Assembly: GCF_027111315.2 (NCBI RefSeq)
Contig: NZ_CP114289.2
Coordinates: 3,038,001-3,102,000 of the forward strand
Direction of reading: 5' to 3'
Length of the DNA stretch: 64,000 bases
From: Flavobacterium limnophilum
GTDB taxonomy: Bacteria; Bacteroidota; Bacteroidia; Flavobacteriales; Flavobacteriaceae
Part shown: positions 6,034 to 52,945 of the stretch, piece by piece
How the letters are laid out: each line of letters starts with the position of its first letter
How positions within the stretch are numbered: the stretch's first letter is position 1
The notes under the pieces: model-generated
Database searches by the model: none
Told to the model about the DNA's origin: nothing
What the model saw: the letters and a program-made list of their open reading frames with translations, nothing else
Program-made: the position numbers and the translations under genes

Positions 6034-9000
6034 ATGAAAAGACTTTTATTACTGTTTATACTATTAACTAGTTTTTTCGGACGAGCCCAATATACTGCAA
6101 TTCCTGACGTGAATTTTGAGAAGGCGTTGATTGATTTAGGAATAGATAGTGGAGCTATTGATGGCAAAGTTCTTATAGCAAATGTGAGTGGAATTACTAG
6201 TTTGGATGTTTCAAAGAAGGCCATTACTGATTTAACAGGCATACAGGATTTTACATCATTAAAAAAATTAGATTGTGCTGAAAATCAATTAACCAATCTA
6301 GATGTTACTAAAAATACGGCTTTGATTGATTTAAATTGTGATCAAAATCAATTAACCAGTCTGGATGTTACTAAAAACACGGCTTTGATTTATTTAGGTT
6401 TTAACTATAACCATATAATTAGTTTAGACCTTACTAAAAATACGGCTTTAACTCATTTACATTTTAATACAAATCAATTAAGTAGTTTGGATGTTACAAA
6501 AAATACGGCTTTAACACATTTAGAGTGTAGCAATAATCAAATAACAAGTTTGGATGTCACCAAAAACACAGCTTTAACTTTTTTAAGCTGTTTTAATATT
6601 AAAATAAGCAGTTTAGATGTTTCTAAAAATCTGGATTTGAATTATTTATGGTGTCACTATGATAAGATAAGTAATTTAGACATTACAAATAACACGGCTT
6701 TAACTAATTTAAGTTGTTTCTCGACTCAAATAAGCAGTTTGGATCTTACTAAAAACTCAGCTTTGACTTCTTTAGACTGTAGCTCTAATCAAATTAGTAA
6801 TTTGGACTTGACAAAAAATACAGCTTTGAATTATTTAAAGTGTGACTCTAATCAAATAAGTAGTTTGGATCTTGCTACACATAATTCTTTGACTTATTTA
6901 TATTGTTATGACAATAAAATAAGTAGTTTAGATGTTACTACAAATACGGCTTTGACTTATTTAAGTTGTAATAACAATTTACTAACATCACTTAACTTAA
7001 AAAACGGTAATAATAGTATTATTAAAAGTTTTAATTCAAAATCCAATCCTAACCTACAATGCATACAAGTTGACAACAAGGTATATTCCGACGCTAATTG
7101 GACATCCAAAAAAGACGCCACGGCCAGTTTTTCTGAAAATTGCAGCAAAACAACAGCAAACGTAGCTCCTATAATTACCGCCTCGGGCAATCAAATTTAT
7201 TGTCCACAAACCAATCAAAAAATTGTAACTGCCTTTGATATTATCGATCCAGACGATACAAGTTCAGAAGCCATTTACGTTCAAATTTCTTCCGGTTATG
7301 TAAACGGACAAGATGTATTGACACTTGCCAATCCAGCTTTGCATCCAACTATCAAAACCGTTTGGGATGCAACTGCAGGAAAACTTACATTATCAAGTCC
7401 CACAACCGGAACAGCTGTTTCCTATGTAGATTTAATAGCTGCCATTAAGGACATTGAATTTAGCAATATATCAGTTTCTCCATCAGGAATTAGAGATTTT
7501 TCCATTAGTTTAGGAACAGGACAACTTAGTTATTTGCCGAGAAACGGTCATTATTATGAATATGTTCCTGCATTAGGCATCAATTGGACAGCCGCAAAAG
7601 ATGCAGCAGCCTCAAGAACTTATTATGGCCTACAAGGTTATTTAGCTACATTAACAGCTGCTGACGAAGCACAATTAGCCGGAGCACAAGCACCAGGAAC
7701 TGGATGGATTGGTGGCAGTGACGCTGAAACTGAAGGAACGTGGAAATGGGTGACAGGACCAGAAACAGGAACTACTTTTTGGATTGGAAAAAACAACGGA
7801 ACTACCACAGCTCCACTTTACTATGCCAATTGGAACTCTCCTAACGAACCCAACAACACTACAAATACCACCAAGCCAAACGGTGAAGATTATGCTCATA
7901 TAACAGCACCAACTGTTGGAAATCCAGGAACTTGGAATGATCTTTCAGAAACAGGAGATCCTATTAACGTTTACAATTATTACCCTAAGGGATATATAGT
8001 AGAATATGGCGGAATGTCTGGAGACCCAACACTTCAATTTTCAGCAAGTACGACAATGAAAATGGCACAATTAACGGTTACTGCTCCAAATCCTGTTTGT
8101 GCTTCCCAAACTAGCACACTTCAGGCAAGCTCTACAACTACTAGTACGATCAATTGGTATGATGACCCAACTGGAGGAAATTTACTATTCACTGGAACTA
8201 ATTTTACCACTCCACCATTGAACAGCACAACAACATATTATATCGATTACGGCTGTATAACCAGAACTCCAGTTACCGTAACTGTAGAATCTTTACCAAT
8301 TGCAAATCCTGTAACAGTTACCAGGCAATGTGACGATAACCAAGACGGCCTTTTTACTTTTAATACCGCTTCTCTTGAAACCACTTTATTGAATGGGCAA
8401 ACGAATGTTAAAGTTACTTATTTAGACGCTGCGAACAATCCCCTGAAAGACGCCAATGGAACGCTGATAACTAGTCCTTTTCCAGCTACTTTTATGACAT
8501 CATCACAAACAATTCAAGCTGTTCTTACAAATAATTCTGCATTAAAATGTTCGAGCAAAACAACCATTGATTTTATCGTTGACGACTTACCCGAAGCTTT
8601 TTCAGTTCCAACAGCCTCAACAACCGCTTGTGATGACGAGCCAATTCCAGCAAGTCAAGATGGGAAATTCCCATTCAACACCTCTACTATCGAATCAATA
8701 ATTTTAAATGGACAAACGGGTATGAAAGTTTCCTATTTTGACAAAAACGGAAATCCATTATCTAGTCCGCTACCCAATCCCTTTTTGACCGATACTCAAA
8801 ACATTACTGCTAAAGTTGAAAACATTCTAAACCCAAACTGTTTTGCTACCACAACCCTAAATTTTGTTGTCAATCCATTGCCAATTGTCAAAGATGTTAT
8901 CATTGTTCAATGCGACACCGACCTTGTCGTAGATGGGAAGACGTTTTTTAACTTAACGGTAAACAATACTGAAATTTCAGCAAACTCTGCCAATGAAACC

Positions 9001-17608: not shown

Positions 17609-17613
17609 TTTTT

Positions 17614-17821
17614 ATTTACGATATTAGATATACGATTTACGGTATATTATATTAGATATACGATATTTTATATTAGATTTAAAAGTAAGAAAGTTAAAAA
17701 AAAATACTATTTTTGATAACGTTGTAAAGTTAGTATTTGCAATTCAATATTCAATTCAAATATACAAAATCTGGTATCGAGTATAGAATATCAAAAACAT
17801 CGTATATCTAATATCGTAAAT
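17614..17821. repeat. Perfect 23-bp inverted repeat in a divergent intergenic region
   Basis: ATTTACGATATTAGATATAC plus GAT at 17614-17636 is the exact reverse complement of 17799-17821. The arms sit almost at the two start codons (17608 on minus, 17833 on plus) and enclose 162 bp that contains further degenerate TATTAGATATACGAT copies (17648-17678). It may be a dispersed non-autonomous element or a pair of operators. Confidence 0.85.
17708..17715 (+). promoter_or_regulatory. Putative -7 element of the GH3 gene
   Basis: TATTTTTG matches TAnnTTTG, between the two arms of the inverted repeat. No TTG is seen at the usual distance. Confidence 0.4.
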
Positions 17822-17832
17822 CGCATATAAAA

Positions 17833-22050: not shown

Positions 22051-22057
22051 CTTTTTG

Positions 22058-22141
22058 AGTTGGAAGATGGAAGTTGGAAGATGGAAGTTAGGAGTTGGGG
22101 ACTTTCCCCGCTTCCAGCTTCCAGCTTCCAACTTCCATCTT
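22058..22141. repeat. Heptad-repeat hairpin between clpP and clpX
   Basis: The spacer is built from degenerate 7-bp units (TGGAAGN and its complement) arranged head to head. Perfect 17-bp arms are AAGATGGAAGTTGGAAG at 22064-22080 and its complement at 22125-22141. The same TGGAAGN/ACTTCNN heptad occurs at 52348-52396 inside a coding region. Confidence 0.85.
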
Positions 22142-22144
22142 TAT

Positions 22145-22876
22145 TTATCTTCTTAACACTTCATCAATCATTCCGTATTCTTTGGCTTCATCGGCAATCA
22201 TCCAATAATCGCGCTCGCTGTCGTTATGCACTTTTTCAAAAGTTTGTCCCGAATGATGCGAAATGATTTTGTACAATTCATCTTTTAATTTCAACATTTC
22301 ACGCAAGTTGATTTCCATATCTGTTGCAACACCTTGTGCTCCGCCTGATGGTTGGTGAATCATTACTCTTGAATGTGGCAATGCCGAACGTTTTCCTGCT
22401 GCTCCAGCACACAAAAGAACGGCTCCCATAGAAGCGGCCATTCCGGTACAAATCGTTGCAACGTCTGGTTTGATGTATTGCATCGTATCATAAATTCCCA
22501 ATCCTGCATAAACACTTCCTCCTGGAGAATTCAAATAAATTTGAATGTCTTTTGAGGCATCGGCACTTTCAAGAAACAACAATTGTGCTTGAACGATGTT
22601 GGCGATTTGATCATCGATTCCTGTTCCCAAGAAAATAATTCGGTCCATCATTAATCTAGAAAAAACATCCAATTGGGAAATATTCAACTGACGTTCCTCA
22701 ATAATATAAGGCGTCATATTGGTTGGATTCATTGCTGCCACGATTTTGTCGTAGTACATTGCGTTTACACCTTGGTGTTTTGTAGCAAACTTTTTAAATT
22801 CTTTACCGTAGTTCATATCTATTTGTTCTAAGTTTTTACGTAATATACTTGTCTGTTTCATTTCATCAAAGGTCAT
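22145..22876 (-). CDS. clpP: ATP-dependent Clp protease proteolytic subunit ClpP
   Basis: The frame encodes 243 residues. The catalytic triad regions are GMAASMGAVLLC (Ser), RVMIHQPSGGAQG (His) and the later SERDYWM (Asp), and the tetradecamer-forming FLGTGIDDQIANIVQAQLLFLE segment is present. The usual ClpP body begins near residue 45; an extra N-terminal stretch is present, and a second ATG at 22816 (MNYGKEFKKFATKHQ) is a good alternative start giving 223 residues. It is the upstream gene of the clpP-clpX pair and is isolated from tig by a terminator. Confidence 0.95.
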   Translation of the reverse strand: MTFDEMKQTSILRKNLEQIDMNYGKEFKKFATKHQGVNAMYYDKIVAAMNPTNMTPYIIEERQLNISQLDVFSRLMMDRIIFLGTGIDDQIANIVQAQLLFLESADASKDIQIYLNSPGGSVYAGLGIYDTMQYIKPDVATICTGMAASMGAVLLCAGAAGKRSALPHSRVMIHQPSGGAQGVATDMEINLREMLKLKDELYKIISHHSGQTFEKVHNDSERDYWMIADEAKEYGMIDEVLRR

Positions 22877-52067: not shown

Positions 52068-52110
52068 AATTCAGATGGCAGGTTACAGACTGCAGATTAA
52101 AATCGAATTG

Positions 52111-52410
52111 CTATTCCTGCTTTTTCTTTTTTCTCATTCGATAAATATAATAACCAATTCCAGCAACTAACAAATAAGGAATGACCATCAAATAAACGAT
52201 ACCGTCATTTACGGCTTGTGACTTCACGGCATTTCCTTCGGTTTCCAAAGCGGCACGACACATGGCACATTGGGCGTTTGCCGACAGCGAAAAGAACAAA
52301 GAACAAAGAACAAAGAGCAAAGAAGAAAGACTCTTTACTTTCCTTTTACTTCCCACTTCCAACTTCCCACTTCTAACTTCTGACTTCTGACTTCTAACTT
52401 TAGTAAACAT
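52111..52410 (-). CDS. Small CxxC membrane protein with repeat-encoded signal peptide
   Basis: The ATG at 52410 overlaps the end of the DUF420 gene by 11 bp, giving 99 residues. The mature part is QCAMCRAALETEGNAVKS, one transmembrane helix (IVYLMVIPYLLVAGIGYYIY) and a basic tail RMRKKKKQE. The signal peptide is strange: residues about 5-28 (RSQKSEV RSGKLEV GSK type heptapeptides) are encoded by seven 7-bp units ACTTCNN at 52348-52396, and its hydrophobic core (LLFVLCSLFFSLS) by six units AAAGAAC-like at 52291-52332. The CxxC and the location after SCO and DUF420 suggest a role in copper/redox maturation of cytochrome oxidase, as inference. The upstream ATG at 52422 is a less likely start. 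Confidence 0.7.
   Translation of the reverse strand: MFTKVRSQKSEVRSGKLEVGSKRKVKSLSSLLFVLCSLFFSLSANAQCAMCRAALETEGNAVKSQAVNDGIVYLMVIPYLLVAGIGYYIYRMRKKKKQE
52291..52332. repeat. Array of six 7-bp units AAAGAAC
   Basis: Three exact AAAGAAC units (52291-52311) are followed by AAAGAGC, AAAGAAG and AAAGACT. The array encodes the hydrophobic core of the signal peptide of the 52111-52410 gene on the minus strand. Confidence 0.85.
52348..52396. repeat. Array of seven 7-bp units ACTTCNN
   Basis: Consecutive units are ACTTCCC, ACTTCCA, ACTTCCC, ACTTCTA, ACTTCTG, ACTTCTG, ACTTCTA. Three units (21 bp) equal seven codons, so the DNA heptad becomes a peptide heptad in the coded n-region. The same unit type builds the hairpin between clpP and clpX. 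Confidence 0.88.
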
Positions 52411-52945
52411 AATAAGGCGCAATCATTAAATAAACCACTACACCGGTAATGGCAACATACAACCAAATTGGGAAGGTAATTTTGGCTATTTTTTTGTGTT
52501 TATCAAATCTTTCTGCCAAGGCGCGAACATAAGTAATCAAAACCAGCGGAATAACGGCGATGGACAAAAGGATGTGCGATATTAAAATAAAGAAATATAC
52601 ATTTCTAATCATTCCTTCGCCACCAAATTTCGTGGATTCAGAAGTCATGTGATAAGCAACATACATTACCAAAAAAGCTACCGAAAGAGCAATTGCAGTT
52701 GTCATTAATTGTTTATGCAATTTCCTTTTACCGTTTTTAATGGCTAATACTCCAGCAATCAAAACAACGGCAGTAATCCCGTTTATGGTTGCATAAATAG
52801 GTGGAAGAAAGGAAAGCGGTTCAACGTGGAATCCAAAATCTTTTAGTTTGACACTAAAAAGAAGTGCCACCACAACTGGAATTACAATTGATACTACAAT
52901 TATAAACTTGTTGAATTTTTGCTCTAACGAATTATCTTCCATCAT
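52400..52945 (-). CDS. DUF420 membrane protein (cytochrome oxidase-linked)
   Basis: The 181-residue protein has five predicted membrane helices, with the FGFHVEPLSFLPPIYATINGITAV start and paired histidines (HKQLMTTAIALS, VAYHMTSES, ILISHILLSIAVIPLVLITY) typical of DUF420 (YozB/CtaM-like). CtaM in Gram-positives is needed for heme-copper oxidase maturation. It overlaps the SCO gene by 1 bp (TAATG) and the next small gene by 11 bp, so translation is coupled across all three. Confidence 0.9.
   Translation of the reverse strand: MMEDNSLEQKFNKFIIVVSIVIPVVVALLFSVKLKDFGFHVEPLSFLPPIYATINGITAVVLIAGVLAIKNGKRKLHKQLMTTAIALSVAFLVMYVAYHMTSESTKFGGEGMIRNVYFFILISHILLSIAVIPLVLITYVRALAERFDKHKKIAKITFPIWLYVAITGVVVYLMIAPYYVY

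Follow-up and report, generated by a model that had tools for sequence, protein, structure and literature searches.

Arrays of 7-bp tandem repeats encode the putative signal peptide of a small conserved Flavobacterium protein and change family between species

Contingency loci, such as the tetranucleotide-repeat genes of Haemophilus, carry long, perfect repeats within the reading frame and exhibit off-states. The 99-codon gene described here, which lies immediately downstream of a DUF420 gene in Flavobacterium limnophilum, resembles them in carrying within the gene, near its start, repeat units whose length is not divisible by 3. However, its arrays are short and imperfect and no off-state was seen. 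Rickettsia palindromic elements, which are inserted in genes, are a second comparable system, as they too are dispersed repeats turned into protein sequence. These elements are longer and occur in many different genes, whereas here tandem heptamers belonging to several families occupy one locus.

In the available part of MacGregor 2015 (PMC4679880), direct repeats of the heptamer TAACTGA are described from organisms including five Bacteroidetes. They are mostly intergenic and adjoin start codons, while a few are located at reading-frame ends and one is close to where an ABC permease gene begins. The arrays considered here are likewise 7-bp direct repeats of mostly intergenic location. However, the earlier repeats have one fixed unit and scattered genes, whereas here several units occur, all at the signal peptide (SP) of a single conserved gene; those of F. 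limnophilum are GAAGTNN and TCTTTGT rather than TAACTGA. Neither recurrent use as SP in one conserved gene nor a unit that differs between species at the same locus was found in that part of PMC4679880. As described in the same part, Mrazek 2007 found that, among long repeats, heptanucleotides form the commonest class in most repeat-rich genomes, and slippage was proposed; the shared feature is the heptanucleotide repeat, but as described there that work provides a genome-wide statistic and not a conserved coding locus. Finally, coding inverted repeats are treated in PMC6649704 and PMC8604942, the accessible portions of which present template switching as a mechanism making the two arms match. 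A subset of our loci similarly carries inverted repeats with coding arms, although those described in these portions are apparently not signal peptides and the inverted arms here occur in a subset of species only. A search of openly licensed PMC papers retrieved none on heptamer repeats forming a signal peptide. Heptamer repeats are thus already known, but their recurrent, family-switching use as the SP of one conserved gene was not found in this literature.

The window is the 64,000-nucleotide stretch of F. limnophilum DNA that was analysed. It contains the following features.

52111..52410, minus strand: 99-codon gene; array-encoded putative signal peptide, then the QCAMC mature part with a single membrane helix predicted by eye
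52273..52410, minus strand: putative SP coding region, 46 codons, ending ...ANA before QCAMC; cleavage site predicted from the A-x-A pattern
52348..52400, minus strand: n-region array, seven GAAGTNN heptamers (ACTTCNN on the plus strand) and a degenerate unit, from the DUF420 stop codon onward; dispersed family
52291..52330, minus strand: hydrophobic-core array, about six TCTTTGT-type heptamers (AAAGAAC on the plus strand), some variant
52400..52945, minus strand: DUF420 gene (PF04238), its final 11 bases overlapping the start of the 99-codon gene
52400..52410, minus strand: overlap of the DUF420 end with the downstream ATG, no untranslated spacer; arrangement common to 133 of 138 loci
22052..22153, no strand assigned: related clpP-clpX heptamer array, inverted-repeat layout

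Translation of 52410-52111 gives MFTKVRSQKSEVRSGKLEVGSKRKVKSLSSLLFVLCSLFFSLSANA-QCAMC... over 99 codons. The ATG (52410-52408) is located within the DUF420 gene, whose stop codon occupies 52402-52400, and the frame contains no stop from there through to QCAMC. As the downstream frame already begins within the DUF420 gene, the whole interval between the DUF420 stop and the mature protein is coding. Two heptamer arrays make up nearly all of the SP coding sequence: GAAGTNN for the charged n-region and the TCTTTGT type for the core, the latter with 5.7 copies and 90% matches according to TRF. A preliminary description of this DNA had reported seven ACTTCNN and six AAAGAAC-type heptamers, a 7-residue peptide period resulting from the 7-bp unit (RSQKSEV, RSGKLEV), an ATG overlapping the DUF420 gene with the arrays inside the frame, and the same heptad outside genes between clpP and clpX. 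Our reading agrees on each of these points, with about six units in the core array and a mixture of GAAGTTG and TGGAAGA-type units in the spacer between clpP (22145-22876) and clpX. The same description proposed a cytochrome oxidase factor. The upstream genes, which carry DUF420, SCO1/SenC and COX4_pro domains, are consistent with this proposal, but the 99-codon protein matched no Pfam or NCBIfam family at E 0.001, so that the suggested link comes solely from the neighbourhood. Heptamers of the form CTGNNNN are visible by eye on the 3' side of the gene, as a degenerate series on the minus strand (52068-52110).

Orthologous loci were collected from Flavobacterium and its close relatives, metagenome bins included. 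One of them, L032, comes from a genome belonging to the same genus group as the window and does not differ from L090 of F. flevense over 300 bases, in agreement with the genus Flavobacterium. The main series (L026-L160, n=135) was reduced to 124 distinct loci by removal of 10 duplicates and of L155, whose mature part is unreadable. Three of these (L048, L079, L151) have no recognised DUF420 end, leaving 121, and L152 has no in-frame start near the DUF420 end, leaving 120 SPs. A further 20 loci were picked for marked stops or long matches, not at random, and 19 were readable.

The lag-7 match in the 99-codon gene amounts to 0.65 for the n-region and 0.72 for the core, and both values have p = 0.001, the floor for 1000 codon shuffles within the part. 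A peptide that is lysine-rich and then leucine-rich might look repetitive merely by chance or through its amino-acid composition, and lags 5 and 6 are indeed also somewhat elevated when codons are shuffled over the whole SP. However, lag 7 does not correspond to a whole number of codons, and when codons are shuffled inside the n-region and the core separately, 69 of the 120 orthologue SPs still have p<0.01 at this lag, a nominal level that overstates independence since the loci are related by descent. By part, this level is reached by the n-region alone in 52/107, by the core alone in 29/120 and by both in 19; the remaining 51 of the 120 SPs fall short of it. Two sets of control N-termini were used, 121 signal-peptide-like or membrane-helix N-termini from a sample of this genome and 329 from the flanks of named loci, and the periodicity is absent from them: 33/120 orthologue SPs reach a lag-7 match of 0.5 or more, compared to 0/121 and 0/329 controls. 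Controls with p<0.01 number 0/121 and 8/329, and among those listed seven of the eight represent one inherited upstream gene. Both the shuffles and the controls contradict an origin in chance or composition, to which we attach next to no probability.

The 7-bp period also stands well above other periods in the genome, as expected of heptanucleotide tandem repeats. A scan of 464 kb of the F. limnophilum genome (about 10%; 42-bp windows, match at least 0.70) detected 11 regions with lag 7. Lags 4, 5, 8, 10 and 13 gave none, and lags 6, 9, 11 and 12 gave 1, 1, 3 and 5 respectively. Nine of the 11 lag-7 regions are intergenic according to a simple gene picker, one is the clpP-clpX spacer, which was called coding, and one is the 99-codon gene. 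Of the 197 gaps of 60-600 bp that flank 80 named loci, 21 are rich in heptads, and their coordinates place every one of these across the DUF420-QCAMC junction; heptad-rich gaps represent 10 of the other 188 in the sample of this genome. When SP residues 1-46 were used as a query for other gene families, 22 proteins were found and all belong to the QCAMC-protein family when read. In these comparisons the use of heptamers as SP is specific to this locus.

An in-frame ATG within the DUF420 gene, from which the frame runs to QCAMC without a stop, is present in 115 of the 121 loci and in 133 of the 138 loci of the enlarged set. The six exceptions among the 121 (L049, L053, L054, L121, L152, L159) start elsewhere and have short SPs devoid of arrays. 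Orthologues starting on the 3' side of their arrays, which would have spoken against the preliminary description, were not seen. The n-region array might nevertheless remain untranslated if the true start were an internal TTG or GTG, both of which occur in frame inside the array of the 99-codon gene (codons 17 and 19), or an internal ATG in other species; some alternative start codon exists in 28 of the 52 orthologues with an n-region array. The other 24 of these 52 (84 of 133 loci overall) have no further in-frame ATG, GTG or TTG before the core, and the conserved frame from the DUF420-internal ATG also argues against an internal start. The core array, moreover, would be translated whichever start is used.

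Stop codons provide a further argument. With the NN of GAAGTNN on codon positions 1-2, TA at these positions creates a TAG stop. TA is avoided solely at this phase: it is found in 0/23 units there, in 19/45 at the other phases and in 23/57 units of the intergenic arrays of this genome (Fisher p 1e-4, a nominal value since the units are from 23 related loci). For comparison, when 46-codon windows are placed on 12 arrays elsewhere in the genome, just 1 of 36 frames is free of stops in the GAAGT sense, and 3 of 36 are in the other sense. From these sequence patterns the arrays look translated, and we consider an untranslated n-region array unlikely.

The two arrays of the 99-codon gene differ in their distribution. 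Four consecutive ACTTCNN units occur at 13 places in the 4.5-Mb genome, including the 99-codon gene, whereas the reversed control pattern occurs at none. The core family is found at 3 places, namely the 99-codon gene, one poly-T-like run and one other. The repeats occur at dispersed places in the genome, as expected of heptanucleotide tandem repeats. The idea that a dispersed repeat had been captured as export signal, put forward in the preliminary description, fits the n-region family, which is dispersed and mostly intergenic; it fits the core family less well, this being rare here. The presence of GAAGT at the locus is associated with a larger number of GAAGT arrays elsewhere in the same genome: such arrays are present in 8 of 10 genomes with GAAGT at the locus and in 17 of 44 without it (54 of 61 searched genomes used; Fisher p 0.03, Mann-Whitney p 0.002). 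The association is moderate, and 2 of these 10 genomes have no four-unit array elsewhere.

Several other repeats were observed in this genome. In the clpP-clpX spacer (22052-22153), GGAAGTT/TGGAAGA units face GCTTCCA units and form a strong fold (mfe -78, z -6.6). An intergenic stretch of about 420 bp (L161:6324-6742) is composed of heptamers in which GAAGTTR drifts to ATTAAGT-type units. Within the window, an AT-rich gap (17609-17832) exhibits periodicity at 7, 14 and 21-28 bp, and about 11 copies of a 63-bp tandem repeat (6283-6973) resemble leucine-rich-repeat coding sequence, a type assigned by eye.

A relative of the 99-codon gene is present in 245 of the 249 genomes of the genus. The heptamer families of the SP vary with the species, while the rest of the protein stays much alike. 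According to our own simple patterns, the 138 loci are distributed between GAAGTNN (17), AAAATAG-type (30), CCAAATT-type (13), AAAGTC-type (12), GCCAAGA-type (4) and other or none (62). A tree was built on DUF420 and the mature protein, with 138 of 143 rows entered. For the 76 tips with a named family, at least 27 family changes are needed on it compared to a mean of 40 after shuffling, on a quick tree in which many forks are weak (27 of 134 inner branches starred). The heptamer family at the locus therefore carries phylogenetic signal, yet shows much turnover, and arrays recur across the set. In an F. johnsoniae-like clade, the SP forms ENRIKNKENR.../ILFSIFFSL and KNKIQKSNSKFQ/FGICFFLIGIS are found in alternation in closely related members, a pattern suggesting that the segment is exchanged as a cassette. 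In addition, the orthologue SPs of P0121, P0095 and L034 include stretches such as CLPAGRD, SRAQSRD and NCFANSLTLGS, which we take to resemble other dispersed repeats, as if the junction took up several repeat kinds.

The arrays are part of the reading frame and their unit length of 7 bp is not divisible by 3, so that gain or loss of a single heptamer would shift the frame and could switch the factor off and on, as in a phase-variable contingency locus; this had been proposed in the preliminary description, which also called for a comparison of repeat number in relatives. Array lengths do vary between close relatives. However, none of the arrays is out of frame, neither at the 121 loci with a DUF420 end nor at the 19 further readable loci, a comparison made between species with one genome each. 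Among the matches listed, eight were marked with an internal stop; seven of them (L036, L039, L080 and L182-L185) proved open on reading and L181 lies at a contig end. The units are imperfect, so that slippage should be rare, and length differences between predicted proteins keep the frame, although such databases cannot display off-variants. Phase variation is therefore unsupported between species as the main role of the arrays, and we regard it as very improbable. A strict 7-residue ladder in protein lengths carries little weight. Among 856 pairs with nearly identical mature parts (119 predicted proteins), the length difference is 0 in 310, 7 in 122 and 4 in 73, and multiples of 7 account for 145 of the 546 non-zero differences; when nearest partners of unequal length are compared, 4 residues (29) is a commoner difference than 7 (16).

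A possible role of the arrays as nucleic acid must also be considered. They might mainly constitute an RNA or DNA element (hairpin, translational coupling or binding site) with the peptide as a by-product, and the available part of MacGregor 2015 (PMC4679880) suggests translational roles for intergenic heptamers. In some species the n-region and core arrays are reverse complements of each other: L118 (F. quisquiliarum) has a perfect inverted repeat of 17 bp (17/17), L085 (F. franklandianum) one of 16 bp (16/16), and L037 matches at 25 of 28 bases. The coding-strand fold has z below -2 in 19/120 loci, and the strongly folding clpP-clpX array points in the same direction. However, the mean fold z is only -0.8, and inverted complementarity reaches p<0.05 in just 22/120 (within-part shuffles). 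The two arrays of the 99-codon gene share no reverse-complement 6-mer, where 5.5 are expected from shuffles, and its coding-strand fold has z 0.0. Strong folding was observed in 2 of 13 other arrays (plus strand folded), one of which (L013) looks like a terminator. A hairpin is therefore unsupported as a general architecture, and a primary role as RNA or DNA element appears quite unlikely.

Complementarity between the two parts of the SP is nevertheless detectable over the whole set. The mean score for reverse complementarity of n-region and core is 9.63 within the same species and 8.39 (sd 0.21) in shuffled pairings, and the own core ranks in the top 10% for 21 of the 120 n-regions, where 12 are expected. 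A GGAATTT core accompanies 6 of 7 CCAAATT n-regions. A TTCTNT core accompanies 33 of 35 AGAANAn n-regions but also 14 of 15 GAAGTNN n-regions, so that CCAAATT/GGAATTT is the sole telling pairing. Shared ancestry of n-region and core may lie behind part of this reverse complementarity. Because K, R and E codons are A+G-rich and their reverse complements are F, L and S codons, one palindromic heptamer element could give both an n-region and a core. Whether such elements, with a purine-rich left arm, supplied both parts and repeatedly replaced the native SP at this locus is a speculative suggestion that we consider rather doubtful; it is clearest for L118, L085 and L037 and does not apply to the 99-codon gene. 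If true, inverted repeats would be a general route from non-coding DNA to an export signal.

The encoded peptides have the character of Sec signals. The n-region has a net charge of at least +2 in all 138 loci (median +4). The SP ends in [AST]-x-A in 114/138, with A at -1 in 131/138, and ANA in the 99-codon gene provides the small residues expected at -3 and -1. The order of the arrays is constant in composition: the significant n arrays contain 52-87% purines and the significant core arrays 19-40%, ranges that do not overlap. Purine-rich sense arrays (GAAGTNN, AAAATAG, AAAGTCA) encode K, R, E, S and N, while pyrimidine-rich arrays (TCTTTGT, TTCTATT) encode F, L, S, I and C. The array-encoded peptide would presumably work as a Sec signal.

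Our preferred reading is that dispersed intergenic heptamers have repeatedly written or replaced a loosely constrained SP, with filtering for frame, absence of stops and purine-then-pyrimidine order. On the sequence patterns described above, we hold this to be likely. Flavobacterium genomes contain families of 7-bp tandem repeats, mostly intergenic, and repeat DNA entering or growing at the DUF420-QCAMC junction would be translated and become the SP. Such a peptide requires only positive charge in its n-region, hydrophobicity in its core and a terminal A-x-A, so that a purine-rich array followed by a pyrimidine-rich one would make a plausible SP. Selection would retain versions that are in frame, lack an in-frame TAG and have the purine-then-pyrimidine order, while sequence and length would otherwise turn over. 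The arrays may have arrived by slippage, template switching or recombination. Intergenic arrays could supply or overwrite this SP because the junction leaves no untranslated room and the SP probably tolerates nearly any sequence of the right character, and the same two properties, the missing spacer and the tolerance of the SP, may be the reason why only this locus is affected.

The locus thus offers a natural series of more than 100 related genes whose signal peptide appears to be supplied by repeat DNA of a mostly non-coding kind, and the origin and replacement of export signals would thereby be open to direct test. It would also represent a case in which a non-triplet repeat is held in a gene by selection on frame and stop codons rather than used as a switch.
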